DNA of 64,000 nt from NCBI GenBank assembly GCA_963971285.1, contig OZ020259.1:4588001-4652000 (forward strand), in the 5' to 3' direction. A model generated the notes under the pieces. It searched no databases. It worked only from the letters and a program-made list of their open reading frames with translations, and was not told the DNA's origin. Numbering within the stretch: position 1 is the stretch's first letter; each line of letters opens with the position of its first letter. Position numbers and translations under genes: made by a program. Positions 2,339 through 43,900 of the stretch are shown one piece after another. The DNA comes from Astropecten irregularis (Eukaryota > Echinodermata > Asteroidea > Paxillosida > Astropectinidae).

Positions 2339-3449
2339 GCGATTTTTTTTTCTGCACCGTTGACGCGTCAGGATGTCAGTTTATTGGATTTTTGCGACTT
2401 GAATGAAGACCATTGAGGTGGCGCACATCAGCTCAGTCGATCCAGACCTAGCGCACACTATACACTGCATGCAGTATAGGCCTAGTAGTAGTCTGTATGT
2501 ACTCGTCCTTGGTGTATTCACAGGGACATTAAAATACTAGTACAAGTAAACAATTCACCAAGGACAAGTAATAATACCATGGAGGAATGAACACCCTCTG
2601 CACACAGAAGGGGAGTGGTGTCGCGACCATGGATTTCTTCCTCCATGGGTGGACTAGTAGCTGGTGGTGGCTATGCCAAATTATATTAATAATGAATCAA
2701 ATCATCAAATCAACTTCTGTATGGAATACTTATTATTGTGTATGGTGGATTGTCACTGTGCAATTTGGATTATCATCCAAATGTGTGTTTGTGCATGGAG
2801 GACTCTTTGCAAACATTGAATAGACAAACAAATATATGTTATCCGTACATGAACTTCTTGTCCCAGAAAGTGGTGCATATCACGGTAAAGCTGATTTAAA
2901 GGGCATTGCAACATTAGTAACGGGTGACAGAGAGTGCAGGCTGCTCAATTTGATTTGTCATGGAATAAAAACAAACATGTGAAATGTTCAGCTCAATCTA
3001 TCATTGGAAACAGTAGAAAACAACGAAAAACAGTTGCAATATATTGCGCCAAATTGTGTGGGCGTCTAGCTGTATCGTTTTTTTTTTTCTTGCCACTCAA
3101 ACGTGTTGTTGTTGTTGTTGTTTTTTTTTTTTTTGGGGGGGGGGTTACTCTTTCCTGGATAAATACAGCATTTCAATTCAGGCAGACACACTATTATGAT
3201 GTTTCTACCATTAAAAATGTATACCCTGTAAGTTATACCATGGAGGAAGGCCTTCCTCCATGGTTATACCATATACATATGTAGCTATTACGCTGCGTAG
3301 TGCACTGCACACACGGTATAGCGATGCACTGTCGTTGATGGCTTGGGTTGCACAATCCTGTCGTGCCAGCACTTTGGTCTTCATTCAGGTCGCAAAAGTC
3401 CAATAAACTGGATGACCTGACGCGTCAGCGGTGCAGAAAAAAAAATCGC
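2339..3449. mobile_element. MULE-2 copy 1, 1111 bp, nested in hAT MITE
   Basis: Inverted ends GCGATTTTTTTTTCTGCACC ... complement, extending to about 60 bp. Flanked by the 9-bp duplication CCCCGGCCC (2330-2338, 3450-3458), lying inside the hAT element. The 9-bp duplication and long ends fit Mutator-like elements. Second copy at 28415-31558. Confidence 0.85.
3239..3262. repeat. Micro-palindrome insertion, 24 bp, 7-bp TSD
   Basis: Perfect palindrome of arm CATGGAGGAAGG, flanked by GTTATAC at 3232-3238 and 3263-3269. Absent from the matching part of MULE-2 copy 2. Confidence 0.75.
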
Positions 3450-4148: not shown

Positions 4149-4155
4149 GTATAAA

Positions 4156-4191
4156 CATGGAGGTAGAAATAGGTCTATTTCTACCTCCATG
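4156..4191. repeat. Micro-palindrome insertion, 36 bp, 7-bp TSD
   Basis: 17-bp arms CATGGAGGTAGAAATAG and complement around GT, flanked by GTATAAA at 4149-4155 and 4192-4198. The right unit reads through this point near 27425 without it. Confidence 0.8.
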
Positions 4192-4286
4192 GTATAAAGA
4201 TAAATTATGGCCGGACACACTTTTTTTTTAATCATGCTTCATGCACCTGCTACATACATACACCTGTACTTCCTCGTAATCGTGAT

Positions 4287-5709: not shown

Positions 5710-6261
5710 GTAGGACTTATGCAATTCCGGGGTTAGTGTCTTTTACGCCACCCATATTATTTTCTGTATTTATTTACCTTCTTCTGTTCCAAAATGAGAT
5801 TTGTTACGTTTCAGGCGGAAACATTTTAACAGTAGGTTTCTACTAGCATCATCTTCATACCCTGAAAGTTTATATGTAAATCTGTGAACATTTCTGTTTT
5901 GGTCTCTTACCAAAGTATGATACAACCTTTGGAACCAAAACAGACATTATCACAGAATTACGTATAACTTAGGGAGCTCATCCAAAAGGTTACACCGCGG
6001 TGTCACCGCAATCACCGCGGTTTGGACGGGGCCTTAACAACCAGCCCACTTTCGACAGTCCTTGCTTATTTAGCATATTAAAAGAACTGACTAACAAAAC
6101 TCCCTATTGTTATTTTAACTACCCACTGAACGCGGTGGCCGCGGCGCAACCACAGACGCCACAAACTCATTTCTGTCTGCCGCGGCCACCGCGTCTGATC
6201 TTGGAGACAAAAAACCAAACTATTACTTCCTCACTGAAAATACATTTTTGGGGGACTTGGC

Positions 6262-6785
6262 TTGGACCATTTTCTCTGGGACCTGCATTATTTTGTCTCT
6301 ACCAAACTATTATTACCCCCGGGGAAAATACGTCTTTTAGGGACTTGGCCGACCATTTTCTCTGGGACCTGCATTATTTTGTCTCTACCAAACTATTATT
6401 ACCCCCGGGGAAAAATACGTCTTTTAGGGACTTGGCCGACCATTTTCTCTGGGACCTGCATTATTTTGTCTCTACCAAACTATTATTACCCCCGGGGAAA
6501 AATACGTTTTTTAGGGACTTGGCCGACCATTTTCTCTGGGACCTGCATTATTTTGTCTCTACCAAACTATTATTTCCCCGGGGGGAAAATACGTTTTTTA
6601 AGGACTTGGCCGACCATTTTCTCTGGGACCTGCATTATTTTGTCTCTATCAAACTATTATTACCCCCGGGAGAAAATACGTCTTTTAGGGACTTGGCCGA
6701 CCATTTTCTCTGGGACCTGCATTATTTTGTCTCTACCAAACTATTATTACCCCCGCTGAAAATACGTTTTTTAGGGACTTGGCCG
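6262..6785. repeat. 87-bp minisatellite block 1
   Basis: About 6 units (GGACTTGGCCGACCATTTTC at 6341, 6428, 6515 ...). Period 86-87 bp equals 29 codons, so long frames stay open (repeated DHFLWDLHYFVSTKLLLPP). Not a gene. Confidence 0.9.
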
Positions 6786-7738
6786 ACATTCCTGGCGTCG
6801 CTGTCAAAATTCATAATATAAAAAAAATACCACACCACTAAAAGTGTTGGCGTGTGTAGAATCACCTCCTGCTCGCCAGGGAGAATGAATAATCGCAACC
6901 AAACTGAATTATAGATGAGAGTGGCTGATCGATACCAGCAAAGCTCTGTATCGATCAGAAGGCTTCGTACTCACAATTATTTCTCTTCATTCCATTGTTC
7001 CGACCATTTTCTCTGGGACCTGCATTATTTTGTCTCTACCAAACTATTATTACCCCCGCTGAAAATACGTTTTTTAAGGACTTGGCTTGGACCATTTTCT
7101 CTGGGACCTGCATTATTTTGTCTCTACCAAACTATTATTACCCCCGGGGAAAATACGTCTTTTAGGGACTTGGCCGACCATTTTCTCTGGGACCTGCATT
7201 ATTTTGTCTCTACCAAACTATTATTACCCCCGGGGAAAAATACGTTTTTTAGGGACTTGGCCGACCATTTTCTCTGGGACCTGCATTATTTTGTCTCTAC
7301 CAAACTATTATTTCCCCGGGGGGAAAATACGTTTTTTAAGGACTTGGCCGACCATTTTCTCTGGGACCTGCATTATTTTGTCTCTATCAAACTATTATTA
7401 CCCCCGGGAGAAAATACGTCTTTTAGGGACTTGGCCGACCATTTTCTCTGGGACCTGCATTATTTTGTCTCTACCAAACTATTATTACCCCCGCTGAAAA
7501 TACGTTTTTTAGGGACTTGGCCGACATTCCTGGCGTCGCTGTCAAAATTCATAATATAAAAAAAATACCACACCACTGAAAGTGTTGGCGTGTGTAGAAT
7601 CACCTCCTGCTCGCCAGGGAGAATGAATAATCGCAACCAAACTGAATTATAGATGAGAGTGGCTGATCGATACCAGCAAAGCTCTGTATCGATCAGAAGG
7701 CTTCGTACTCACAATTATTTCTCTTCATTCCATTGTTC
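6786..7738. repeat. 738-bp higher-order repeat of minisatellite plus 210-bp spacer
   Basis: The 210-bp spacer at 6786-6999, containing palindromic CTGATCGATACCAG and TGTATCGATCAG, recurs at about 7524-7737. Each spacer is followed by a fresh 87-bp block. Shift 738 bp. Confidence 0.85.
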
Positions 7739-8132
7739 CGACCATTTTCTCTGGGACCTGCATTATTTTGTCTCTACCAAACTATTATTACCCCCGCTGA
7801 AAATACGTTTTTTAAGGACTTGGCTTGGACCATTTTCTCTGGGACCTGCATTATTTTGTCTCTACCAAACTATTATTACCCCCGGGGAAAATACGTCTTT
7901 TAGGGACTTGGCCGACCATTTTCTCTGGGACCTGCATTATTTTGTCTCTATCAAACTATTATTACCCCCGGGGGAAAATACGTCTTTTAGGGACTTGGCC
8001 GACCATTTTCTCTGGGACCTGCATTATTTTGTCTCTACCAAACTATTATTACCCCCGGGGGAAAATACGTCTTTTAGGGACTTGGCCGACCATTTTCTCT
8101 GGGACCTGCATTATTTTGTCTCTACCAAACTA
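7738..8132. repeat. 87-bp minisatellite block 3
   Basis: About 4.5 units, ending abruptly at the 1272-bp satellite after ACCAAACTATTATTC. Confidence 0.9.
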
Positions 8133-8138
8133 TTATTC

Positions 8139-11100
8139 TCCCATGCGACAAGACAGCTGGTAAAGAAAACAGGCATTGACAAGGTACCATCATTTTGTTT
8201 ACGTATGGCCAGAGCAGTTTATTGCCAGATCAATCATTATATCAATTGCATAAGTTTCTCCGGTCGTATGGAACCGCGAAAAACACCTCCGTATGCACAC
8301 ACACAATAATGATCATGAAACTAATTGATTGGCATTGATGTAATTAATAACATTGCATTCCCGGTCGTACGCGACCCGCGAAATGATAAATCTCAACGTC
8401 ATGTTTCCGGTCGTAGGCTACCCGCGAAACATACAATAATCCATAACTGTACAAATGTATCTCCGGTCGTACGCGGCCCGCGAGATGACAACAATTCAAG
8501 TGGTTCCCGGTCGTACGCGACCCGCGAAACTCATCAAAAACCATTTTACAAAATATTCCCGGTCGTACGCGTCCCGCGAAATAATACGATTAATTAAACA
8601 ATACTCCAAGTGGTTCCCGGTCGTACGCTACCCGCGAAACCCAATGCCCCTTGTCACCATAATCTTTGCCACCGATCCAGGGGTTAGGATTGCGATACTA
8701 CACAAAATAATCAAAAGTCCCGGCATAATGGAGCCGTGGATAACATAATAAGTATATTGCCGCCCTTCGGATATTACGCTCCCGACAATCAGTGTAAACA
8801 ATAGGACCCCCGATAGAAGAATCTACCAAAATTCGGCTTGTCCACGAACCCGTATTACATAATTATACATCATGTAATTTCCGTTGAGTCTAAAAAATCG
8901 GGGATGAAAACCTTCTTGCATGATAAGCCTAAGGCATATGACGGCGTTCTGAATGAAATTCCACCAATGGCCCCAATTCGAGGGAGGGCGAAAAACTCCT
9001 GAAAACCTCACGAAGTGCTCTGACAAATGACTGAGGAAAAGTTGGAGGAAATTCCCTCCCGGCTCCACGTATACATGGCAACCGAGTATTGTGTAACTCC
9101 AGAATCGAGACCTAGCAGACTTCATTCAGGCGTGAGAGAACATAATTCACGGAGGTAGAAGGGGAGGTGGCGGGCTTAGAAATTTTCGGAGTAGTAAAAA
9201 CAGAGAATACACGACCGTCTGGTCAAACTGCTCTGACAAGAGTGACGAACTACTCCTTGAAATCCGGAGATATGCACGGCCTTGTATCAATCAACAAGTG
9301 ACCACATGGAGCGCAGGAAGGGAGAGGTTGTTCCGGACCCCGCATACCAAACACCGTCTTGGGGATAATAAATTATTTGAAGCCGTATACCGGCCTCAAA
9401 TGAATTATTCTCCCATGCGACAAGACAGCTGGTAAAGAAAACAGGCATTGACAAGGTACCATCATTTTGTTTACGTATGGCCAGAGCAGTTTATTGCCAG
9501 ATCAATCATTATATCAATTGCATAAGTTTCTCCGGTCGTATGGAACCGCGAAAAACACCTCCGTATGCACACACACAATAATGATCATGAAACTAATTGA
9601 TTGGCATTGATGTAATTAATAACATTGCATTCCCGGTCGTACGCGACCCGCGAAATGATAAATCTCAACGTCATGTTTCCGGTCGTAGGCTACCCGCGAA
9701 ACATACAATAATCCATAACTGTACAAATGTATCTCCGGTCGTACGCGGCCCGCGAGATGACAACAATTCAAGTGGTTCCCGGTCGTACGCGACCCGCGAA
9801 ACTCATCAAAAACCATTTTACAAAATATTCCCGGTCGTACGCGTCCCGCGAAATAATACGATTAATTAAACAATACTCCAAGTGGTTCCCGGTCGTACGC
9901 TACCCGCGAAACCCAATGCCCCTTGTCACCATAATCTTTGCCACCGATCCAGGGGTTAGGATTGCGATACTACACAAAATAATCAAAAGTCCCGGCATAA
10001 TGGAGCCGTGGATAACATAATAAGTATATTGCCGCCCTTCGGATATTACGCTCCCGACAATCAGTGTAAACAATAGGACCCCCGATAGAAGAATCTACCA
10101 AAATTCGGCTTGTCCACGAACCCGTATTACATAATTATACATCATGTAATTTCCGTTGAGTCTAAAAAATCGGGGATGAAAACCTTCTTGCATGATAAGC
10201 CTAAGGCATATGACGGCGTTCTGAATGAAATTCCACCAATGGCCCCAATTCGAGGGAGGGCGAAAAACTCCTGAAAACCTCACGAAGTGCTCTGACAAAT
10301 GACTGAGGAAAAGTTGGAGGAAATTCCCTCCCGGCTCCACGTATACATGGCAACCGAGTATTGTGTAACTCCAGAATCGAGACCTAGCAGACTTCATTCA
10401 GGCGTGAGAGAACATAATTCACGGAGGTAGAAGGGGAGGTGGCGGGCTTAGAAATTTTCGGAGTAGTAAAAACAGAGAATACACGACCGTCTGGTCAAAC
10501 TGCTCTGACAAGAGTGACGAACTACTCCTTGAAATCCGGAGATATGCACGGCCTTGTATCAATCAACAAGTGACCACATGGAGCGCAGGAAGGGAGAGGT
10601 TGTTCCGGACCCCGCATACCAAACACCGTCTTGGGGATAATAAATTATTTGAAGCCGTATACCGGCCTCAAATGAATTATTCTCCCATGCGACAAGACAG
10701 CTGGTAAAGAAAACAGGCATTGACAAGGTACCATCATTTTGTTTACGTATGGCCAGAGCAGTTTATTGCCAGATCAATCATTATATCAATTGCATAAGTT
10801 TCTCCGGTCGTATGGAACCGCGAAAAACACCTCCGTATGCACACACACAATAATGATCATGAAACTAATTGATTGGCATTGATGTAATTAATAACATTGC
10901 ATTCCCGGTCGTACGCGACCCGCGAAATGATAAATCTCAACGTCATGTTTCCGGTCGTAGGCTACCCGCGAAACATACAATAATCCATAACTGTACAAAT
11001 GTATCTCCGGTCGTACGCGGCCCGCGAGATGACAACAATTCAAGTGGTTCCCGGTCGTACGCGACCCGCGAAACTCATCAAAAACCATTTTACAAAATAT

Positions 11101-12438
11101 TCCCGGTCGTACGCGTCCCGCGAAATAATACGATTAATTAAACAATACTCCAAGTGGTTCCCGGTCGTACGCTACCCGCGAAACCCAATGCCCCTTGTCA
11201 CCATAATCTTTGCCACCGATCCAGGGGTTAGGATTGCGATACTACACAAAATAATCAAAAGTCCCGGCATAATGGAGCCGTGGATAACATAATAAGTATA
11301 TTGCCGCCCTTCGGATATTACGCTCCCGACAATCAGTGTAAACAATAGGACCCCCGATAGAAGAATCTACCAAAATTCGGCTTGTCCACGAACCCGTATT
11401 ACATAATTAAACATCATGTAATTTCCGTTGAGTCTAAAAAATCGGGGATGAAAACCTTCTTGTATGATAAGCCTAAGGCATATGACGGCGTTCTGAATGA
11501 AATTCCACCAATGGCCCCAATTCGAGGGAGGGCGAAAAACTCCTGAAAACCTCACGAAGTGCTCTGACAAATGACTGAGGAAAAGTTGGAGGAAATTCCC
11601 TCCCGGCTCCACGTATACATGGCAACCGAGTATTGTGTAACTCCAGAATCGAGACCTAGCAGACTTCATTCAGGCGTGAGAGAACATAATTCACGGAGGT
11701 AGAAGGGGAGGTGGCGGGCTTAGAAATTTTCGGAGTAGTAAAAATAGAGAATACACGACCGTCTGGTCAAACTGCTCTGACAAGAGTGACGAACCACTCC
11801 TTGAAATCCGGAGATATGCACGGCCTTGTATCAATCAACAAGTGACCACATGGAGCGCAGGAAGGGAGAGGTTGTTCCGGACCCCGCATACCAAACACCG
11901 TCTTGGGGATAATAAATTATTTGAAGCCGTATACCGGCCTCAAATGAATTATTCTCCCATGCGACAAGACAGCTGGTAAAGAAAACAGGCATTGACAAGG
12001 TACCATCATTTTGTTTACGTATGGCCAGAGCAGTTTATTGCCAGATCAATCATTATATCAATTGCATAAGTTTCTCCGGTCGTATGGAACCGCGAAAAAC
12101 ACCTCCGTATGCACACACACAATAATGATCATGAAACTAATTGATTGGCATTGATGTAATTAATAACATTGCATTCCCGGTCGTACGCGACCCGCGAAAT
12201 GATAAATCTCAACGTCATGTTTCCGGTCGTAGGCTACCCGCGAAACATACAATAATCCATAACTGTACAAATGTATCTCCGGTCGTACGCGGCCCGCGAG
12301 ATGACAACAATTCAAGTGGTTCCCGGTCGTACGCGACCCGCGAAACTCATCAAAAACCATTTTACAAAATATTCCCGGTCGTACGCGTCCCGCGAAATAA
12401 TACGATTAATTAAACAATACTCCAAGTGGTTCCCGGTC
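8139..12438. repeat. 1272-bp satellite, 3.4 copies
   Basis: Monomers start at 8139, 9411, 10683 and 11955 (last truncated). Copies 1 and 2 appear identical; copy 3 differs at a few bases (for example 11410 and 11463). The near-identity means very recent amplification. The short frames inside repeat with the monomer and show no protein features. Confidence 0.95.
8260..8640. repeat. Seven spaced CCGGTCGTACGCGACCCGCG repeats within the satellite monomer
   Basis: Copies at about 8260, 8360, 8405, 8461, 8506, 8558 and 8616, with a weaker one near 8718. Each is 22-24 bp, separated by 21-78 bp of unique sequence. The core GGTCG-TACG-CGACC can form a hairpin. Repeated in each monomer. They could be protein-binding sites (inference). 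Confidence 0.8.
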
Positions 12439-12439
12439 G

Positions 12440-14665
12440 GTTCTGTCTGCCGCGGCCACCGCGTCTGATCTTGGAGACAAAAAACCAAACTATTACTTCC
12501 TCACTGAAAATACATTTTTGGGGGACTTGGCTTGGACCATTTTCTCTGGGACCTGCATTATTTTGTCTCTACCAAACTATTATTACCCCCGGGGGAAAAT
12601 ACGTCTTTTAGGGACTTGGCCGACCATTTTCTCTGGGACCTGCATTATTTTGTCTCTACCAAACTATTATTACCCCCGGGGGAAAATACGTCTTTTAATG
12701 ACTTGGCCGACTATTTTCTCTGGGACCTGCATTATTTGTCTCTACCAAACTATTATTACCCCCGCTGAAAATACGTTTTTTAAGGACTTGGCTTGGACCA
12801 TTTTCTCTGGGACCTGCATTATTTTGTCTCTACCAAACTATTATTACCCCCGGGGAAAATACGTCTTTTAGGGACTTGGCCGACCATTTTCTCTGGGACC
12901 TGCATTATTTTGTCTCTATCAAACTATTATTACCCCCAGGGGAAAATACGTCTTTTAGGGACTTGGCCGACCATTTTCTCTGGGACCTGCATTATTTTGT
13001 CTCTACCAAACTATTATTACCCCCGCTGAAAATACGTTTTTTAAGGACTTGGCCGACCATTTTCTCTGGGACCTGCATTATTTGTCTCTACCAAACTATT
13101 ATTACCCCCGGGGGAAAATACGTCTTTTAAGGACTTGGCCGACTATTTTCTCTGGGACCTGCATTATTTGTCTCTACCAAACTATTATTACCCCCGGGGG
13201 AAAATTCGTCTTTTAGGGACTTGGCCGACCATTTTCTCTGGGACCTGCATTATTTTGTCTCTACCAAACTATTATTACCCCCGGGGGAAAATACGTCTTT
13301 TAATGACTTGGCCGACTATTTTCTCTGGGACCTGCATTATTTGTCTCTACCAAACTATTATTACCCCCGGGGGAAAATACGTCTTTTAGGGACTTGGCCG
13401 ACCATTTTCTCTGGGACCTGCAGTATTTTGTCTCTACCAAACTATTATTACCCCCGGGGGAAAATACGTCTTTTAGGGACTTGGCCGACCATTTTCTCTG
13501 GGACCTGCATTATTATGTCTCTACCAAACTATTATTACCCCCGGGAGAAAATACGTCTCTTAGGGACTTGGCCGACCATTTTCTCTGGGACCTGCATTAT
13601 TTTGTCTCTACCAAACTATTATTACCCCCGGGGGAAAATACGTTTTTTAGGGACTTGGCCGACCATTTTCTCTGGGACCTGCATTATTTTGTCTCTACCA
13701 AACTATTATTACCCCCGCTGAAAATACGTTTTTTAAGGACTTGGCCGACTATTTTCTCCGGGACCTGCATTATTTGTCTCTACCAAACTATTATTACCCC
13801 CGGGGGAAAATACGTCTTTTAGGGACTTGGCCGACCATTTTCTCTGGGACCTGCATTATTTTGTCTCTACCAAACTATTATTACCCCCGGGGGAAAATAC
13901 GTTTTTTAGGGACTTGGCCGACCATTTTCTCTGGGACCTGCATTATTTGGTCTCTACCAAACTATTATTACCCCTGCTGAAAATACGTTTTTTAAGGACT
14001 TGGCCGACCATTTTCTCTGGGACCTGCATTATTTGTCTCTACCAAACTATTATTACCCCCGGGGGAAAATACGTTTTTTAAGGACTTGGCCGACTATTTT
14101 CTCTGGGACCTGCATTATTTGTCTCTACCAAACTATTATAACCCCCGGGGGAAAATACGTCTTTTAGGGACTTGGCCGACCATTTTCTCTGGGACCTGCA
14201 TTATTTTGTCTCTATCAAACTATTATTACCCCCGGGGGAAAATACGTCTTTTAGGGACTTGGCCGACTATTTTCTCTGGGGCCTGCATTATTTTGTCTCT
14301 ACCAAACTATTATTACCCCCAGGGAAAAATACGTCTTTTAGGGACTTGGCCGACCATTTTCTCTTGGACCTGCATTATTTTGTCTCTACCAAACTATTAT
14401 TACCCCCGGGGGAAAATACGTCTTTTAGGGACTTGGCCGACCATTTTCTCTGGGGCCTGCATTATTATGTCTCTACCAAACTATTATTACCCCCGGGAGA
14501 AAATACGTCTTTTAGGGACTTGGCCGACCATTTTCTCTGGGACCTGCATTATTTTGTCTCTACCAAACTATTATTACCCCGGGGGAAAATACGTTTTTTA
14601 GGGACTTGGCCGACCATTTTCTCTGGGACCTGCATTATTTTGTCTCTACCAAACTATTATTTCCC
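12440..14665. repeat. 87-bp minisatellite block 4, about 25 units
   Basis: Begins with a second copy of the left border sequence (12440-12533 matches 6170-6262), then 86-87 bp units. Some units lose one T (GCATTATTTGTCTC), shifting the frame. Confidence 0.9.
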
Positions 14666-14843
14666 TGGCTGAATACAGGATACAGTTTCGGCCAGCGGGA
14701 AATTTCATTGATGAACCGCGACAACCGCGTTCGCTAGTGCATAATTCATTAGTATCAACATAACAATAGCACTCGTCTTGAGGCTCTGCCTCATTAACTT
14801 GTCTCCGCATGGGTGATTTTTTGTGCAAAGGGCCGCGTTCCCC

Positions 14844-14864
14844 GTAGTCTTGGTCCAAGACTAC
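14844..14864. repeat. Micro-palindrome insertion, 21 bp, 7-bp TSD, different sequence
   Basis: Arms GTAGTCTTGG and complement around T, flanked by GTTCCCC (14837-14843, 14865-14871). Lies in the subterminal region of the Harbinger-type element. Confidence 0.7.
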
Positions 14865-27310: not shown

Positions 27311-27545
27311 AGATGGAATGAAATTGACTAAAAATCAAATAGCTGAATGAAAACTACATTTTACTTTTCATATTTTGTTTCAAATGGATTTCGTTGTTTG
27401 TTTTTTGTTGGACTTTAGCCTATAAAGATATGGCCGGATACACATTGTTTTTTTTAGTCTGCAAGTAGCCTATTGTGCTCCATGCACCTGCTGCTGCTAC
27501 ATACATACACCTGTACTTCCTGGTAATCGTGATAACATTAATTAG

Positions 27546-27861: not shown

Positions 27862-29709
27862 CTTTCATTGCACGTGCGGCGAGTTGAGGCTTGTTGAGTG
27901 CAGTCGGCTAGAACGAATGATATCTGGCTGCGTCACTCGTGGAGGCAGAAGTTACACCGATCGTCAGTTTTTACGTCTTTTCCTTCCTCCAGACAGCCAG
28001 TCATTGGGAAAAAGGTACGTAATCACGGGTTTGTTAATGTCATTTTGTCTCCTAATTTCAAGAATCGGTTAGAAAAACATCTGATGATCATCTGAAAACG
28101 TAGTTGCGATGATCGTAACCCTAGGTCTGACATGGGGACAGGGACCTTAGGGTTACGAAGAAGTTCATTCAAACATTGGAGAAAAACTTTTTGGCCAACT
28201 CCTGAAGTACGTTTCCACTTAGTTTTCCACTTTCCAATATCCAAACACAAAATCTGACTACATGGATCTGATCGGTACTTATCAATGAGTCATATAAAAC
28301 CACTTAGAATATCGAAAGATTATTTTATGCAGAAAAAATGACCCAAAACTTACCGAAGGTGTCGAGATTCCCTCCGTTTGCCCTCAGTCGGCCATTTTGA
28401 ATAGTGCGCAGTGTGCGATTTTTTTTTCTGCACCGTTGACGCGTCAGAATGTCAGTTTATTGGATTTTTGCGACTTGAATGAAGACCATGGAGGTGGCGC
28501 ACATCAGCTCAGTCGATCCAGACCTAGCGCACGCTATACACTGCATGCAGTATAGGCCTAGTATACGAAGCAGAAATCGGGTCAAAAAGATTGGAAACCA
28601 TTACTTGGAATCGGATGAATTTTTGAGAAGCTAACATGTTTTGAAACCTTATGTTTTGAAAAATCGAAAATATTTTTTAAGACTCGGATGCATTTTCAAA
28701 AACCTAATCAAATTTAACCACCGAACATATTCAAGTTTCGGATATTTTTGCGAATCCGATCATTTTTCAAACATCTAACATGTTTCCGAATCGGATGCAA
28801 TTCCAAAAACCTAACATGTTTTTCGATTCGAATGCATTTTCAAGTTCCGAATGCCCACAAAACAGCCGTAGGCATAAAACAGCCGTAGAGTGTGTGTTAG
28901 GTTTACGTAATTTCATCCGAGTTTTCATTTCATCCGATTCTGAAAAGCATCCGAAACTTTTGACCCTGTTCGGGCCGGGTTTTGCCGAGTGCCCGAGCCC
29001 AGAACTGATAGTCTTGCAACAAGACGTCCGGGGGAAACTCCACGTCCCACTGCAAGCCTACGGCCAGAGCCACTGTTCGCAGTGTTTGGCCTACAAATCG
29101 TGCCACTACTAAATACTAGACTTTATAGTACAATGATAATTCCTTGTGGAAAATGGAGAAAAGACCAAATGTGCACCCCTTAAACCATGGAGGTAGAAAT
29201 AGAAATTACTGTAGTCACGCTCGTACTAGGCCATGATCATGACACCTATCGAGTGACGGAGGTGGGGCAGGGGGGGGGGGAATTTATTATAAAATGGAGA
29301 AAAGAAGACCAAATGTGCACCCCTTATCCTTAAAAGTTAAACAACCGTTAATTTTCTTGTTGCTTTTTTAAACCATTTTTTTCACACCGGTGATTTAATG
29401 GCCAGGTTTAAGGTTTTATACAATAAAAGAAAAATGTCGACCGTCTTCTACCTGTTTTGTAACTTACAAAGAAAATAACGGAGGTCCTGCCCATTTTCAT
29501 ATACAAGACATAAGCTTGTCCCTCGATAAGTTTTTCAAGCCCACACGGATTGCGACTCAGTTTTTTTGTTTTTGTTTGTTTTCATTTTCAATCAACCCAG
29601 CAATATCCGCCCCTGATCGAGACTGTCGACCCAGCTTTCCTCGATTACTGTTGTAGTTCGACGAACTACACGTTCGATTGATCGTAAAATTTTTGAATGC
29701 TGGTCAACT

Positions 29710-30005: not shown

Positions 30006-32845
30006 TGGCGTACGCGGGTGGGTTGATCAGCTTCGGTAATAATTTTAGTACAAAAGATGAGACAAACATGGCAACACTAGCTACTAGTGAACCCCTGGCG
30101 AGTCCGTTCTGAATCCCTTTTGGCAGCCTAACGTAACACTTATGCCTACTATACTAAGCTCACTGGCTTTTGACAGCGTAGTATGCACTGTAAGAAAGAC
30201 ATGCCCGACGTCTTGTTGCAAGACTATCAGTCTGGGCTCGGGCACTCGGCAAAACCCGGCCCGAACAGGGTCAAAAGTTTCGGATGCTTTTTCAGAATCG
30301 GATGAAATGAAAACTCGGATGAAATTACGTAAACCTAACACACACTCTTCGGCTGTTTTATGCCTACGGCTGTTTTGTGAGCATTCGGAACTTGAAAATG
30401 CATTCGAATCGAAAAACATGTTAGGTTTTTGGAATTGCATCCGATTCGGAAACATGTTAGATGTTTGAAAAATGATCGGATTCGCAAAAACATCCGAAAA
30501 TTGAATATGTTCGGTGGTTAAATTTGATTAGGTTTTTGAAAATGCATCCGAGTCTTAAAAAATATTTTCGATTTTTCAAAACATAAGGTTTCAAAACATG
30601 TTAGCTTCTCAAAAATTCATCCGATTCCAAGTAATGTGTTCCAATCTTTTTGACCCGATTTCTGCTTCGTACTAGTAGTAGTCTGTATGTACTCGTCCTT
30701 GGTGTCTTCACAGGGACATTAAAATACCAAACTAGTACAAGTAAACAATTCACCAAGGACAAGTAATTACACCATGGAGTGGTGACCATGGATTTCTTCC
30801 TCCATAGGTGGACTAGTAGCTGGTGGTGGCTATGCCAAATTATATTAATAATGAATCAAATCATCAAATCAATTTCTGTGTGGAATACTAATTATTGTGA
30901 ATGGTGGATTGTCACTGTGCAATTTGGATTATCATCCAAATGTGTGTTTGTGCATGGAGGACTCTTGCAAACATTGAATTGACAAACAAATATATGTTAT
31001 CCGTACATGAACTTCTTGTCCCAGAAAGTGGTGCATATCACGGTAAAGCTGATTTAAAGGGCATTTCAACATTAGTAACGGGTGACAGAGAGTCAGGCTG
31101 CTCGATTTGATTTGTCATGGAATAAAAACAAACCTGTGAAATGTTCAGCTCAGTTTATCATTGGAAACAGTAGAAAACAACGAAAAACAGTTGCAATAAT
31201 TATTGCGCCAAATTGAAATTGTGTGGGCGTAGCTAGCTGTCTCGTTTTTTTTTTTATCTTGCCACTCAAACGTGTTTTTTTTTTTTTTTTTTTTTTTTTT
31301 GGGGGGGGTTACTCTTTCCTGGATAAATACAGCATTTAAATTCAGGCAGAAACACTATTATGATGTTTCTACCATTAAAAATGCATATAGCTATCACGCT
31401 GCGCATTGCACTGCACACACGGTATAGCGATGCATTATCGTTGATGGATTGGGTGGAACAATCCTGTCGTGCCAGCAGCACTTTGGTCTTCATTCAGGTC
31501 GCAAAAGTCCAATAAACTGGATGACCTGACGCGTCAGCGGTGCAGAAAAAAAAATCGCGCGCAGTGTGCCATCTCGACCAAATTACGTCACGTGAAATGC
31601 CGTTTTGGCTGTTCCACCTTTCAAACTCAACCTCGCAGCCCTATGGAGGGTGTTCCCAGAATAACACGTGCGCTGTGCATTGTGATGTACCGTGTACGTG
31701 TACGTGTACACGCATATCGCATACATTATGGAGGTTTTTTTTTTAAGTCGGCATTGTTTGTCCATGTCAAGCTGCTGCTGATACCTGAAGGAAATTGCTA
31801 AGATTTTCAAATGATTTCCTTCATGAATGGTCCCACAAACAGACAAAATGTTAGCAAGTCACAAACTCGGCGCCGACCCAATCGATCCATGATCAAACAG
31901 AAATAAAAAAGTCATCCACCTCATCACAGATCGCGCAGTGGTCGGAATAAACAGTGGACTGAAAAATATATCCGGTCATCAATTACACCAAAAATGCTCA
32001 TACCCGGTAGCACAGTGAGGATATATTCCTAAAAAATATCACCGGAATATTCCATCGGAAAACCACCATTTCACCAAATCTGTACCGAGCCGGCCGGCTG
32101 TGGGCCACCGTCCGTATACGGTAACGAACCCGGCCGCGATCCAAAAAGGTAGCGACCGAGCGCAACATACATTTCAAGCCCACGGCGAAACTCTGTACCG
32201 AGCCGGCCGGCCGTGAGCCGCCGTCCGTAACGGTAGAACGAACCCGGCCGCGATCCAAAAACTGAGGTAGGCCTTCCGACCGCGCGCAAGCCCACGGCAC
32301 GTGTAATGTACTGATTGAGACTTTCGCTGGTGCACGTACACAATGTACGTTAACTACGTTTGCTTTGAAACTGTAGCTATTACGCACGCGGATACCAGGC
32401 TGTATTTCTCTGCGGTGTGGGCAATGTTTTTACGTCTTTGATTTTATAATGCGATCGTCGGTCGGTTTCGGAAGGATTTCACGATATATTTTTTTAGATT
32501 AAGTATAATTATGAAAAGAGTGTTTCTACTTGGCCAATAATTGAACAAAATAACTGAGTGAAATTTAAGTTAGATTTATAAGCTGATCAGCCTGCGATTT
32601 ACGGTACTTTGGAAGGACGGTCGATCAGAATATTTTTATTTAGATGTCGGAAAAAAATCACGCCATATACGTTTTTCTTCACCTGTCATATCAGAAGAGC
32701 GGCGGAAAATAAACTTAATTCGTCAGTGTCGGCACACGTATTGGGTGTTTTGACAAGGGTCTGGTCAATTCAATAACCTGTGATTTATTTAACCCAATAC
32801 ACCGAAGCATGTGCGGCGCGCGGCGGCCGTTGGACACGCTCACAC

Positions 32846-32863
32846 CATGGAGCTAGCTCCATG
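32846..32863. repeat. Micro-palindrome insertion, 18 bp, 7-bp TSD
   Basis: Perfect palindrome CATGGAGCTAGCTCCATG flanked by CTCACAC (32839-32845, 32864-32870), inside MULE-1. Confidence 0.75.
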
Positions 32864-33327
32864 CTCACACACTGTATGCGATATGCCGTGTATAGCACTG
32901 TACAGCGCACGTGATACGAGCCCTCCATAGGGCTGCGAGTTTGAGTTTGAAAGGTGGAACAGCCAAAACGGCATTTCGCGTGACGTAATTTGGTCGAGAT
33001 GGCACACTGCGCACTATTCAAAATGGCCGATTGACGGCGAACGGAGGGAATCTCGACACCTTCGGTAAGTTTTGGGTCATTTTTTTCTGCATAAAATAAT
33101 CTTTCGATATTCTAAGTGGTTTTATATGACTCATTGATAAGTACCGATCAGATCCATGTAGTCAGATTTTGTGTTTGGATTTTGGAAAGTGGAAAACTAA
33201 GTGGAAACGTACTTCAGGAGTTGGCCAAAAAGTTTTTCTCCAATGTTTGAATGAACTTCTTCGTAACCCTAAGGTCCCTGTCCCCATGTCAGACCTAGGG
33301 TTACGATCATCGCAACTACTGAAAACG

Positions 33328-34478
33328 GAGGTTTGTCTGGTTGTTGTTCACTTGTTTTCTCATCAAATTTCTCACTGTGTGCATAACGTTAGGGCTTATG
33401 CTGTACACATACACATACACATACGTACACACTATAGTAGTACAGAAGTACAAACTAGTAACCCTAACCCCCTGGGGGCATTTTACTGAGTACAATCCTG
33501 AATCCTCCACAATCCTCCAATGGTCACACTTTAAAAACTGCGTTCATCCTGAATCCTCCGCAGTCCTCCAGTGATCTCACTTATACTCAAAATGAGAGGT
33601 ACCTGAATCCTGAATCCTTCAAAATCCTTCAGTGGCCCTACCTCAAAAAATGCGTTTATCCTGAATCCTTGCCACTCCTCAAGTGGGGTGGTCCTCACTT
33701 GAAAATGACATTATATCCTGAATCCTCCGAAATCCTCCAAAACTACCAGAAGGATTTTGGAGGATTGAGGAGGGTTACGGCTTTGTACTTTCATTTTCAG
33801 TAGGACTTATGCAATTCCAGTAGGCCTCTAGTAATACTAGCTGTTTGACTTTTGAATTCAGAATTTACTTGAAAAGTTCTTCAACTTCTTGTGGATTTAA
33901 CCCTGGCCTGACATGGGTCGGAATGGTAACGGTGTACAAGCAGGTCCGACACCTATAAAGGGAATAAAATCAACTTAATTGGCCTAGTTTCAACTGTTCC
34001 AAAATGATATTTTTTTACTTTCAGAAAATGTTCCTGCGTCCTTAAATCCCCAGATAGAAGAATTTTGTGCAACATTTCAGAGTAAAAATGCAATTTTCTT
34101 ACCTGTTTGTTGCAAACTTCAAAACAGACAGACAAAATACTAGTTTCATTCCCTTTATAGGTATCGGACCTGCTTGTACACCGTTACCAGATAAAGGCCT
34201 TGTACTTTCATTTTCAGTAGTATCGCCATGGAGGAAGGAAAAGATATTTTCCTTCCTCAATGGTAGGACTTATGCAATTCCGGGGTTAGTGTCTTTTACG
34301 CCACCCATATTATTTTCTGTATTTATTTACCTTCTTCTGTTCCAAAATGAGATTTGTTACGTTTCAGCCGGAAACATTTTAACAGTAGGTTTCTACCAGC
34401 ACCATCTTCATACCCTGTAAGTTATACATAAATCTGTGAACATTTCTGTTTTGGTCTCTTACCAAAGTATGATACAAC
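33328..34478. other. Right-unit upstream spacer
   Basis: Collinear with 4820-5910. Contains the CCTGAATCCTCC repeat and the older micro-palindrome. No gene seen; any gene B promoter or noncoding first exon may lie here but has no distinctive signal. Confidence 0.5.
34227..34262. repeat. Micro-palindrome, older copy (right unit)
   Basis: 16-bp arms CATGGAGGAAGGAAAA with one mismatch in the partner arm, around GATA. Orthologous to 5672-5709. Confidence 0.55.
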
Positions 34479-34984: not shown

Positions 34985-37900
34985 GTGAGCTAGTGATTTG
35001 ACTGAATTTATATTCAGTCACGACTTTTGTCTTGTCCAAATAATTTTGGGGCCTTTTTTTTTCAAACCTCGGCTCCGGTTCAGGCTTTGGCTCCCTTTCT
35101 TTTTAAACCAACTCTGAAATACAGTATCAAAATAGAGACGTTTGGCTGCAGGGGTTCGGAAGTAGATTAGAGCTTATCTGGTTTGAAAAAGGAAAACAGA
35201 GCTTCAATTTCAATGAAAAAGCACAACCTATGTTTTCAGCATATGGATGACACAGCTGGAGCCTGAGCCGGAAAGCTTAAATTTGATTTTGACGGTGTGA
35301 AAATTATCAGTACTCATTACAGATAAGTAATCTGAAATCACAGAGTAGTAGGCCTAATCGGAAATCACAGATTATAATCTGAAATCACAGATTATAATCT
35401 GAAATCACAGATTATAATCTGAAATCACAGATTATAATCTGAAATCATAGATTAGTAATCTGAAATCACAGATTAGTAATCCGAAATCGCAGATTAGTAA
35501 TCCGAAATCGCAGATTAGTAATCTGAAATCACAGATAAGTAATCCAAAATCACAGATTAGTAATCCGAAAACACAGATAAGTAATCCAAAATCGCAGATT
35601 AGTAATCTGAAATCATACATTAGTAATCTGAAATCACAGATTAGTAATCTGAAGTCACAGATTAGTAATCTGAAATCACAGATTAGTAATCTGAAATCAT
35701 AGACTTAAATGTCACGTAGAGTTTTTTGAAAACTTTTCACTGTTATTTTTTTATTAAAAAAAGGTCATTGGTTTTACTCTTTTCTTGATAAATAGGCCTA
35801 CAACATTTCAGGCAGAATTATTATTTATTATATTTAAATATTACCATCTTTATACCCTTTTAGTTATGGGTAAATCTGTGAAGATTTCTGTTTCGTAATG
35901 TTACCAAAGTATACAGTGTAGTAGTAGGCGGAAATAATTTAATGGTATGTTTGTAGGCCTACCAACACCATCTTCATACCCTGTAAGTTAAACGTAAATC
36001 TGTGAACATTTCTGTTTTGGTTTCCTACCAAAGTATGATATTACCTTTAAATTGTGATCCTTGATATTGCACAGTGCATCTACGCAGTCTTTTGCTTCTG
36101 TAGATCCAATTACCGGATTTCCTGTTTCCCTGTGACACGTATTTCCTTTCACATTTTGTAGAATAACTAAAAAATGAGTTGAGTGACCTTGCAAAGTGCA
36201 TGATGTAAAACACCCAAGAACTGGCGTTTTGCCTTTTTTTGGTGGAATTTTGCAACTTGAATCAAAGACCAAAGTTATTTAAAGCTAAACGAAATTGTAA
36301 CTTAAAGCAATATAGCCATATGTACATATATTCTTGTCAATCGTGCAATATGTGTATCTTTACTTGCACGTTTTTGTTCTGTTGTCGTTAAGCCTTTGCG
36401 AAAGATCTTGCTATAGGATCGAAATGTCAGGCCCTTAGGCCTATACCTCCAAGTTGAGGGCAGTGTGGATGGCAGGTTTTTGGGGGGAGGATAGATGCAG
36501 CCCAAAAAGTGTAAACTGTACAAAATTTTAGTCAGTTATTTTGTCCATTTTGCCAAGTAGAAACATGCTTAAATTCACATATTGGATATAAAAGAAACAT
36601 TGTGTACTTGATCTAAATGCTTGATTTATTTAAGAATAACATCGTAAAAATCATTCTGAAAGTGACGATCACATTGAAGAAGACGTACATGCCATAAATC
36701 GCACACGTTGCACGTGACTACATAGGTTAACCGTTTACCTGATTTTTGGGGTGTGTGTGTTTTTTTAATCAGTAACCGGATATGAAATTAGTGCTGTGCA
36801 AAATCGGGTAATTTGTTATTCGTTTCCGGAAGCAAAAAAAAATTCGGATCCGTGTTATACGATTTAATCGCCTTTTAAATAAACAGTGCTAGCGGGCGGT
36901 CGAATTCCACTGTACAATGTACATTAGTTTCTGGTCTCAACTCTCAATCTACGTGCGTGTTTGTGAAAAAAATAGACGGGCCATATTTTTGTGCCTGTTT
37001 GTCCGAACAAAATCAAATATGCACGGACAAATTGTCCGACCAATATAATTATGAATAAAAGCCCTTAAAATATAAAAACAATATACTTATGACTTCCAAT
37101 TTATTATTAGTTTCGTGATAGAATTACGTTAATTACGCCATTTATACGCCATTGGTTCACTGGCCAGTGAAGTTCTACGCGTACGAAACTTCGGTCATTC
37201 AGCTCCGATCAAAGTCGCATGCAAATCATGAGAAGTGGCTGTAGCCGCTACCACCATAGACTTGTGTGTAACATCAAGCCGCAGCCAAGTATTTTAGACG
37301 CGGCCTAACGGCAGTGTCAAGAATTAGACGTAAGGAGAATTTGACCATAAAAAGCACTCGGCGCACGCGGAACGCTGCATATGCAATGGGATTTTGATGA
37401 AATTCTCAATACATGTGACAGATAGAAAGCCACGTGGTCTGTATATCTGCAGGTCCATTGAGTTCACGTGCGTGAAGTTTACACTCTGTTTACACGTACG
37501 GCATGGGAGTTTATAGGCCTTCAGCAACGAAGTTGTTGAAAACTTGTGCCTTTGGGGAAAACTTGTAGCAAGGCTTTTCTTCTACTGTAATATTAATAAC
37601 CATATATGAGTCGAGAAATCGCTTCATCCCATGTTATGAAGCGAAGGAAAGTGTAGACAGAAAGCGCAAACCTGTCTTGTCCCATACACATACACCCAGT
37701 ACACGTAGTGCAGTCTGTAGCGTAAACCGATGGGGTTTGGTATCCAGACACAGGGGTATTTTGCAATTCATTGTGTATGATGTTTTTCCGTAGGCGGAAG
37801 GGTGCCTTGCTAAATGAAAAACCATGCTTGTTGTAGTTGTACATTATACCAATCACGCTCGGAAGGTTTATTTTTACAGTAATTTTACGATGTTTTTTAG

Positions 37901-40900: not shown

Positions 40901-43900
40901 AGTTTCTCTTTGTTTGTTTGTTTGTTTGTTTGATCAATTTTTACTTGAACTGAACCTACAATTGTCTCTATTTATATACTCTCTCAGGTTGTTGCCTACA
41001 TGGTCATGTCTATCTTAGCCGCCATCGCATCGTTCGCCTTTGGTTATGTTACTGCTGTTTTGACATCCCATTGGCTCGGGGTGAGTAAAGAAGCAAAAAA
41101 CCTCACTTTAACGGTGTTGCACATTCAGTGTGGGATCTACGGGGGGGGGGGGGGGGTTTGGGGGGGGGGTTTAGGGGGTTTAACCCCCCGCCCCCTTATG
41201 ATCCCTAAAAAACAAAAATCAAAATCAAAATTCAAATGTCAAATTTAAAAACCTTCCGACGAAAGGGGGCGGGGGGACACACCCCCCCTTCCACACCTTC
41301 GCGCCCTCACAGTGCCTGGCTACAAAATTTCACTCTGGGTAAACCCCCATTAGCAAAAAGCTAGATCCGCCCCTGACATTCCTGAACGACATCCAAATGT
41401 TAAATGAAACAAATATATCTTTCCATAAAGATCCTGCTTGGATCGAAACATATTTGGCCCTCGTAACATTTTAAAAAAAAATAAATTTAAAGTCATTATT
41501 TTGGCTGATGAGCTGTTTACAGCAGTTAAATGATTACTTCTAGTGATACAATTGTAAAACAAACTATATGGGGAGTGCTGTGGCCTCACCTGGCGTGTTG
41601 AACTCCAAGTCTTGTGGTCAATCTTCAAATTGTGGGTTCGAATCCAGCCATGGTTTAGTGCTGCTTGAGTCCTTGTGCAAGACGCTTTGTCAAATATTGC
41701 TCCTCTTCACCCAGGTGTAAATGGGTACCTGCGAAATGGTAACAGGGGAAAAGGAATTGTCTGCTTTATATAAATTAAATAAAATTCCTGAGACCATCTT
41801 CATGTTTGTTTGTTTTTTTTCTTTTTTTTGGCTTACACGTACAGGACGGGAACAGCATGGGTGTGTACATCCTGCTGCTTGTTTTGTCCGTATTCGAGTT
41901 CATCGTTTCCATCGTTGGTGCAAGCATGACATGTGGCATTGTGTGCTGCAAAGGAGAAACTACCCGACCCGCGGTAAGTTATGCTGCGGCCGACAGAGGG
42001 TGCCCTTTGTCCTCTGAAATGGCTGATGATATTAATCTATTCATGTCTCCTAATTGTTAAATCGCTGATCGAACATCGAAAACTAACGAAGCCAGAGTTG
42101 AAGCCCTGGCCAAGATTTTTAAAGGCCCGATATTTGTATTTTATTAATTGGTTGATTATTTGATTGGTTGATTGATAGATCGATGGTTGATCTATTGATG
42201 GTTGATTGATTGATCGATGGTTGATTGATCGATGGTTGACTGATCAATGGTTGATTGATCGTTGGTTGATTGATCGATGGTTGATCTATTGATGATTGAT
42301 TGATTGATGGTTGATTGATCGATGGGAGGTTGATTGATCGATGGTTGATCTATTGATGATTGATTGATCGATGGTTGATTGATCGATGGTTGATTGATTG
42401 ATCGATGGTTGACTGATTGATGGTTGATCTATTGATGATTGATTGATTGATGGTTGGTTGATTGATCAATGGTTGTTGATTGATTGATCGTTGATTGATC
42501 GATGGTTGATTGATGGTTGATTGATTGATAGATGATAGATGTTTGATTGATCGATGGTTGATTGATTGATCGATCGATGGTTGATTGATCGATGGTTGAT
42601 TGATCGATGGTTGATTGTTGGTTGATTGATAGTTGATTGATTGATCGATGGTTGATTGATTGATGGTTGATTGATCAATGATTGATTGATCGATGGTTGA
42701 TTGATAGTTGATTGATAGTTGATTGATTGATCGATGGTTGATTGATCGATGGTTGATTGATCGATGGTCGATTGATTGATCGATGGTTGATTGATGGTTG
42801 ATTGATCGATGGTCGATTGATTGATGGTTGATTGATGGTTGATTGATAGTTGATTGATAGTTGATTGATTGATCGATGGTTGATTGGTTGATCGATGGTT
42901 GATTGATCGATGGTTGATTAATCGATGGTTGGTTGCTTAATTATTTATTTCGCTCTTCTTATTTTCATGTATTTATTTATATTGATTGATTGATTTATTC
43001 CTGTACATGTATCTGTTTGTATGCTTATCTATTTGTTGATATATTTTGGGTGTTTTTTTTTTAGGTGTACCGAGACCAGGTGATTGTCAGCACTCAGCCG
43101 GGTGTGTACATCCATGGCCAGGTTCCACAGCAGCAGTATGGTAAGTTCTATAGGCTCGTCCTCTCGAGCTTCCAAGGCTTGGTTTTTGTGGTTAGTTGAA
43201 CTGGCGGCCTGCATTGTGTGCCAGTGTCAATGTGGCTCTTATCTGTTTTCAGCGCTTTAGTAAAGCCTACTTGTTCTAGATTGACCAGTTAGGCCCTTTT
43301 CCAAACCTCGGCTCCGGCTCAGGCTCCGGCTCCAGCTCTGTCATGCATATGCTTAAAATATATTTCATTGAGGCTGAATCTCTGTTTTCTTGTTCAAAAT
43401 AGAGTATCTACTTCCAAACCGTAGCCAAAAGGCTCTATTTTGATACCCGTTATTTAAAAATGGATTCACAAAATGGAGATGGAGCTGGAGCCTGAGCCGG
43501 AGCCGAGGTTTGGAAAAGGGCCCTAATTTACTCATTTACTCAATGACAGTGGGTTTTCTTTGCCGTGTAGTGTAGCATATGGGCAATTCCAGCGTAACGG
43601 ACATGACAATCACACAGTTTTTGCCTCATTCAGAGGATCACCAAGTAGGATTGGCAGTTTGCAAACAATTTTAATTAGGCTTATCAGACACATTAATCTA
43701 TCAGTGACATATGTAGTAAATTTTTATGTAATTTCATTAAACGGTTGTAGAGAAAATGCACTTCTTGTGACCGTAACGGACATGACACCAAATGGACATG
43801 AATTGCCCGTATTCCCCCTACAAGTAATAAACTGCTGCAAACTGCTCATCAGCCAAAAAATGACCAAAATTTATAAAATGCTTGGTGTTATTGTTAGGAG

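Follow-up and report, generated by a model that had tools for sequence, protein, structure and literature searches.

Three very short palindromes, each flanked on both sides by the same seven letters, raise the question of what kind of event leaves such a structure behind in the genome of Astropecten irregularis (475.7 Mb, 168 contigs). They lie in a stretch of 64,000 nucleotides (C23:4588001-4652000; hereafter the window), and the initial annotation regarded them as a possible new class of insertion, in which either every insertion copies its second arm from its first or selection preserves the pairing. We propose instead that, in this assembly, they are very probably excision scars of the P superfamily, i.e. 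the repaired donor sites of DNA transposons that have left.

Palindromes and flanking repeats in the window

The positions and letters of all three palindromes were confirmed, and each is bracketed by exact 7-bp repeats (3/3; Table 1). The 4156 site was near-perfect, as had been claimed (17/18 facing positions pair), and two of the three palindromes pair perfectly with different interiors. Shuffling predicts 0.01 occurrences in the window of CATGGAG and CTCCATG separated by 0-30 bases. A family-free scan of the window (outer 7-bp arms perfect, length ≤50 bp, flanked by exact 7-bp repeats, with low-complexity repeats removed) returned five sites, the three above plus 14844-14864 and 42464-42489, the last of which sits inside a GATT-like repeat array; 200 dinucleotide shuffles of the window gave two matches in total, and never more than one per shuffle.

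Table 1. Coordinates of palindromes, target duplications, ends and whole elements (window positions unless a contig is given)
Feature	Position	Strand	Details
Left 7-bp target duplication GTTATAC	3232..3238	.	sequence read
Probable scar CATGGAGGAAGGCCTTCCTCCATG	3239..3262	.	presumptively 12+12 bases from a second family of ends (CATGGAGGAAGGAA..)
Right target duplication GTTATAC	3263..3269	.	sequence read
Left 7-bp target duplication GTATAAA	4149..4155	.	sequence read
Probable scar CATGGAGGTAGAAATAGGTCTATTTCTACCTCCATG	4156..4191	.	17 left-end bases CATGGAGGTAGAAATAG, filler G, 18 right-end bases (TCTATTTCTACCTCCATG)
Right 7-bp target duplication GTATAAA	4192..4198	.	sequence read
Solitary 17-base end CATGGAGGTAGAAATAG, then AAATTACTG	29186..29202	+	sequence read
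Left target duplication CTCACAC	32839..32845	.	sequence read
Probable scar CATGGAGCTAGCTCCATG	32846..32863	.	presumably two ends joined at self-complementary CTAG
Right target duplication CTCACAC	32864..32870	.	sequence read
Possible older scar CATGGAGGAAGGAAAAG-ATA-TTTTCCTTCCTCAATG	34227..34262	.	one arm apparently mutated
Family-A element	C1:36526603-36535738		9136 bp; inverted repeat 33 bp; 7-bp duplication AATCAAT/AATCAAT
Family-A element	C8:11495263-11504927		9665 bp; inverted repeat 31 bp; 7-bp duplication ATTATAC/ATTATAC

The absence of the 4156 palindrome from a paralogous unit was also borne out: the related copy aligned at 27370-27520 lacks it and reads TTTAGCC-TATAAAGA, vs. TTTAGCCTATAGTATAAA-[palindrome]-GTATAAAGA at the 4156 site, so that most of the repeat is present there just once, and the lengths differ by 5 bp. 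The other two comparisons were uninformative, since the related copy of the 3239 site (31330-31450) misses a larger stretch around it and the 32846 site aligned poorly to its related copy. These results uphold the view that the palindromes trace back to insertions with 7-bp target duplications.

Other structures in the window were less regular. The mutated palindrome at 34227 has no target duplication (GTATCGC vs. GTAGGAC), the 12 kb downstream of the solitary end at 29186 hold no partner for it with an exact 7-bp repeat, and pairs at 2578 and 30773, which by eye show no target repeat, were left out. A perfect palindrome with a different end sequence, TAGTCTTGGTCCAAGACTA, lies at 14845-14863 between 9-bp repeats (CGTTCCCCG), and is perhaps a scar from another transposon type. 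Positions 35368-35441 hold tandem 20-bp units (AAATCACAGATTATAATCTG) with one palindrome in each, and the long stop-to-stop frames at 5973-8309 and 12410-14672 are made of repeated units (..GTWPTIFSGTCIILSLPNYYYPRGKIR..) and are therefore probably satellite-like arrays rather than genes.

P-like elements that carry the arm

The 17-base arm of the 4156 site, CATGGAGGTAGAAATAG, occurs 300 times forward and 282 times in reverse in the genome (582 vs. 0 in the control), and at two loci a P-type transposase frame lies between a forward and a reverse copy (Table 1). Both of these elements, which we call family A, start and end with the arm, followed on both sides by AAGGAGTT(A/C)GAACG; their inverted repeat reads CATGGAGGTAGAAATAGAAGGAGTT(A/C)GAACG.., and inward of 31-33 bp the two ends of each element diverge. 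The TNP-like RNase H profile PF21787 matches both above its cut-off (E 9.0e-25 in an open frame of 712 aa on C1; E 7.3e-26 in one of 776 aa on C8), and it matches again beside a third 23-base end on C160 (E 7.3e-26, 776 aa), at 2684, 2716 and 2716 bp from the end on C1, C8 and C160, respectively. Just seven copies of this 23-base end exist in the genome. PF12017 (the P helix-turn-helix), a 73-position profile that can miss divergent copies, had no match at E≤0.001 at the CATGGAG elements. With a TNP-like RNase H domain, a 7-bp duplication and inverted repeats starting with CA, the CATGGAG elements are P-like, and their inverted repeat has the arm of the 4156 site as its outer part; the site is made up of the two end tips of an element family present in the same genome. 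The proposed new class of insertion found no support, the arm belonging to the end of a P-like element that is far larger. Nor is the 7-bp duplication, which had been called uncommon among known superfamilies, foreign to the P superfamily: Galileo of Drosophila is described as having mostly 7-bp target duplications with consensus GTATTAC (PMC4168063), which resembles GTTATAC and ATTATAC here, although its ends are reported as long and internally repetitive (PMC3573991), vs. an inverted repeat of 31-33 bp here.

Among the end families, whole elements were found for family A alone, and none was found with the end of the 3239 or the 32846 site. The end family of the 3239 site, CATGGAGGAAGGAA.., is known here from other palindromes rather than from a whole element, and the identical 18 letters of the 32846 site (CATGGAGCTAGCTCCATG) recur at C1:1610715 and C1:1759206.

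The 17-base end also forms a local cluster at C1:4557602-5100513, with 17 copies on one strand throughout. On C1 below 12.6 Mb there are 23 copies, these 17 and six others, and 21 of the 23 (the 17 clustered and four of the six elsewhere) fall outside the listed palindromes, with the remaining two inside them. Many ends must therefore be something else, perhaps short non-autonomous elements.

Genome-wide copies, retained tips and joins

The initial annotation had called for a genome-wide scan for short palindromes between exact 7-bp repeats. Counting the motif pair by itself, CATGGAG and CTCCATG stand 0-30 bases apart (≤44 bp overall) at 2834 places, vs. 47 for the reversed-pattern control, on which the genome-wide evidence depends throughout. 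At 31-60 bases apart (45-74 bp overall) the counts were 364 vs. 29, and of ten such pairs among the matches listed, four belong to one repeat family and two resemble two neighbouring palindromes. Flanks could be read at seven motif places (52 sources, 349,941 bases, overlapping loci included), of which four, the three window sites and C1:18048, have exact 7-bp repeats. C1:18048, the first palindrome in the genome listing, has ATACAAC on both sides and retains up to 18 + 15 end bases that overlap by one. The other three places, copies of one repeat, show no target duplication (2/7 positions matching).

Of the 50 palindromes on C1 among the matches listed, we set aside 16 that belong to a few repeats (TGTTTTATAG, CCCGGGAACAGA, CTATCTGTTG) and compared the remaining 34. 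These are 14-38 bp long and vary in trimming and filler, and so are not one spreading sequence. Many of the listed palindromes are lopsided (e.g. 16+10, 7+15 and 12+7 end bases retained), which argues that pairing is neither copied from arm to arm nor maintained, contrary to what had been suggested; the self-complementarity is what remains of two identical inverted ends, trimmed and then rejoined.

Published work on Drosophila describes how such remnants can arise. The P transposase makes its cut some 17 bases in from either end and leaves a 17-base 3' extension (PMC10983969, PMC7776569), and the tabulated excision junctions of P{wa} hold, between 8-bp repeats, up to 17 bases per end together with short overlaps or filler (PMC2895639, Chan et al. 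2010). We measured 47 of the 48 junctions in Tables 2 and 3 of the latter paper, leaving out one row with long microhomology: lengths were 20-78 (median 32, vs. 24 for the 34 core C1 copies here), with 31/47 at least 90% palindromic and 20/47 fully so. The layout is the same as in these tabulated footprints (target repeat, ≤17 bases per end, short filler or overlap, target repeat), as is the CATG start of the ends; the P{wa} footprints differ in their 8-bp repeat and in being laboratory-induced, in repair mutants, whereas those here have 7-bp repeats and are natural.

Compared with a 17-base overhang, the tips retained by family A come close but do not keep to it exactly: in the nine probable scars compared (18 arms) no arm exceeds 18 bases, out of an inverted repeat of 31-33. 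Three of the 18 arms reach 18 bases, and two of these three overlap the opposite arm by one base. Another end family, CATGGAGAAATAAGACACA, whose continuation is known from one window end, retains 19 bases in three of four arms. Since family-A arms stop at 17-18 bases, we infer that the cut in the A. irregularis genome would lie at a place similar to that of Drosophila P. In one family-A copy, at C1:4019976, the two ends meet exactly at AT, which is also a frequent join motif in the Drosophila excision table (PMC2895639). Further joins read on C1 were at CTAG in two places (window site excluded), AGCT in two and TATA in one, overlaps that assume end families read from palindromes or single ends rather than from whole elements.

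Proposed excision scars and the alternatives

We reasoned that a P-superfamily transposon would insert, creating a 7-bp duplication, and would later leave by a cut that, by analogy with Drosophila, may be staggered by about 17 bases, so that each broken end would carry a single-stranded element tail of about 17 bases. The element ends being inverted repeats, the two tails would share the same 5'-3' sequence, and because the overhangs are identical, pairing between them would be limited to self-complementary stretches such as CTAG, TATA, AGCT and AT; alternatively, they may be trimmed and joined with one or a few filler bases. By either route, a short and roughly palindromic sequence would be left between both target repeats. 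Both tips would stay at the site because the transposase cuts within the element, some 17 bases from each end, the scar would look self-complementary because both ends are one sequence inverted, and interiors would differ because of several end families and unequal trimming. Annealing at self-complementary motifs would thus account for interiors that differ but still largely pair, with neither arm copying nor selection required. For excision scars we counted the identity of the family-A arm, the 7-bp flanks, the limit on arm length, the uneven trimming and the Drosophila-like layout; against them, the 18-19-base arms, the repeat-borne palindromes without target duplication, the 34227 site, the many 17-base ends outside listed palindromes, the lack of a PF12017 match, the excess at 45-74 bp and, within the one assembly covered, the lack of any site seen both with its element and without it.

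The alternative closest to excision scars is that the palindromes are ultra-short MITEs, internally deleted P-like elements moving as 18-36 bp units on the transposase of full elements. Such units would have the same end sequences and 7-bp duplications, and the 582 copies of the 17-base end vs. seven of the 23-base end suggest that non-autonomous relatives may exist. P elements are reported, however, to need more than their tips to move: end sequences of 138 and 216 bp are given for Drosophila P, and the P-related ends of Anopheles P-MITEs are <100 bp (PMC1562414). Moreover, the 34 compared copies differ in trimming and filler, and the ends retained in family A stop at 17-18, so that we regard ultra-short MITEs as unlikely. 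A new class of micro-insertion, with the second arm templated from the first or pairing kept by selection, would suit the finding that two of the three palindromes in the window pair perfectly while their interiors differ, but it sits poorly with lopsided copies in the same genome and with a 4156 arm that is the end of an element of known type, and we consider it very improbable. Least credible of all are chance palindromes or palindromes within ordinary repeats, even though 16 of the 50 listed copies belong to a few repeats and the sole readable repeat family (L002-L004) lacks a target duplication: the excess over the reversed control (2834 vs. 47), the exact repeats at all three window sites and the two scan matches in 200 shuffles all argue against them.

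Excision footprints of the P superfamily are a known process, and the case in this genome is remarkable mainly for the possible number of scars: true scars among the motif places may reach ~2800. In the literature on P elements and footprints that was covered, few subscription journals among it, we recognised no genome-wide account of P scars by title or opening of the abstract. It is possible, though we hold it only tentatively and at somewhat under an even chance, that most traces of one P-like lineage are scars rather than elements (up to ~2800, vs. seven full 23-base ends of family A), that the germ line mended P breaks chiefly through end joining inside the overhangs, in many cases at self-complementary motifs, and that thousands of natural repair junctions are preserved. 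Reading the palindromes as excision scars recasts an apparent new insertion class as a known process and explains why such scars stay palindromic. Should most genomic copies be scars, they would form a ready data set on germ-line double-strand-break repair across evolutionary time, one in which the position of the cut is known at each break, and the repair pathway would become readable from thousands of natural junctions. They would also show where a 7-bp P-like lineage once inserted, at sites that counts of elements alone miss.

Other P families are present in the same genome, with P transposase profile matches at elements whose ends are CACGGACG, CATAGATATA, CATAGAGTTATA and CACTGATC. They share ends of the form CA[CT]NGA and differ in having 8-bp target duplications (8 of 20 fetched loci with ends placed); CATAGATAT, CACGGACG and CACTGATC are ends of families with 8-bp repeats. 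One of the other P families carries all four of Pfam's P domains and matches the solved Drosophila transposase. Among these families there are long open P-transposase frames, and the sole one tested matches Drosophila P transposase 6p5a (E 5e-27). On C11, P-like RNase H matches form a dense cluster at ~18.99-22.09 Mb, many with stops or in short frames. Six near-identical P-transposase gene copies (L005-L010; C1, C8, C9, C14 and C19) have an 809-aa open frame; compared with one of them without gaps and in the same orientation, the other five are changed at between 2 and 19 of 2531 positions, a similarity in sequence that suggests recent movement or duplication. A CATGGAG..CTCCATG pair inside the six was rejected as element ends, since the flanks outside the pair are common to the copies; in one copy of this P (L030), an exact 8-bp repeat lies at ends that begin with CACTGATC.
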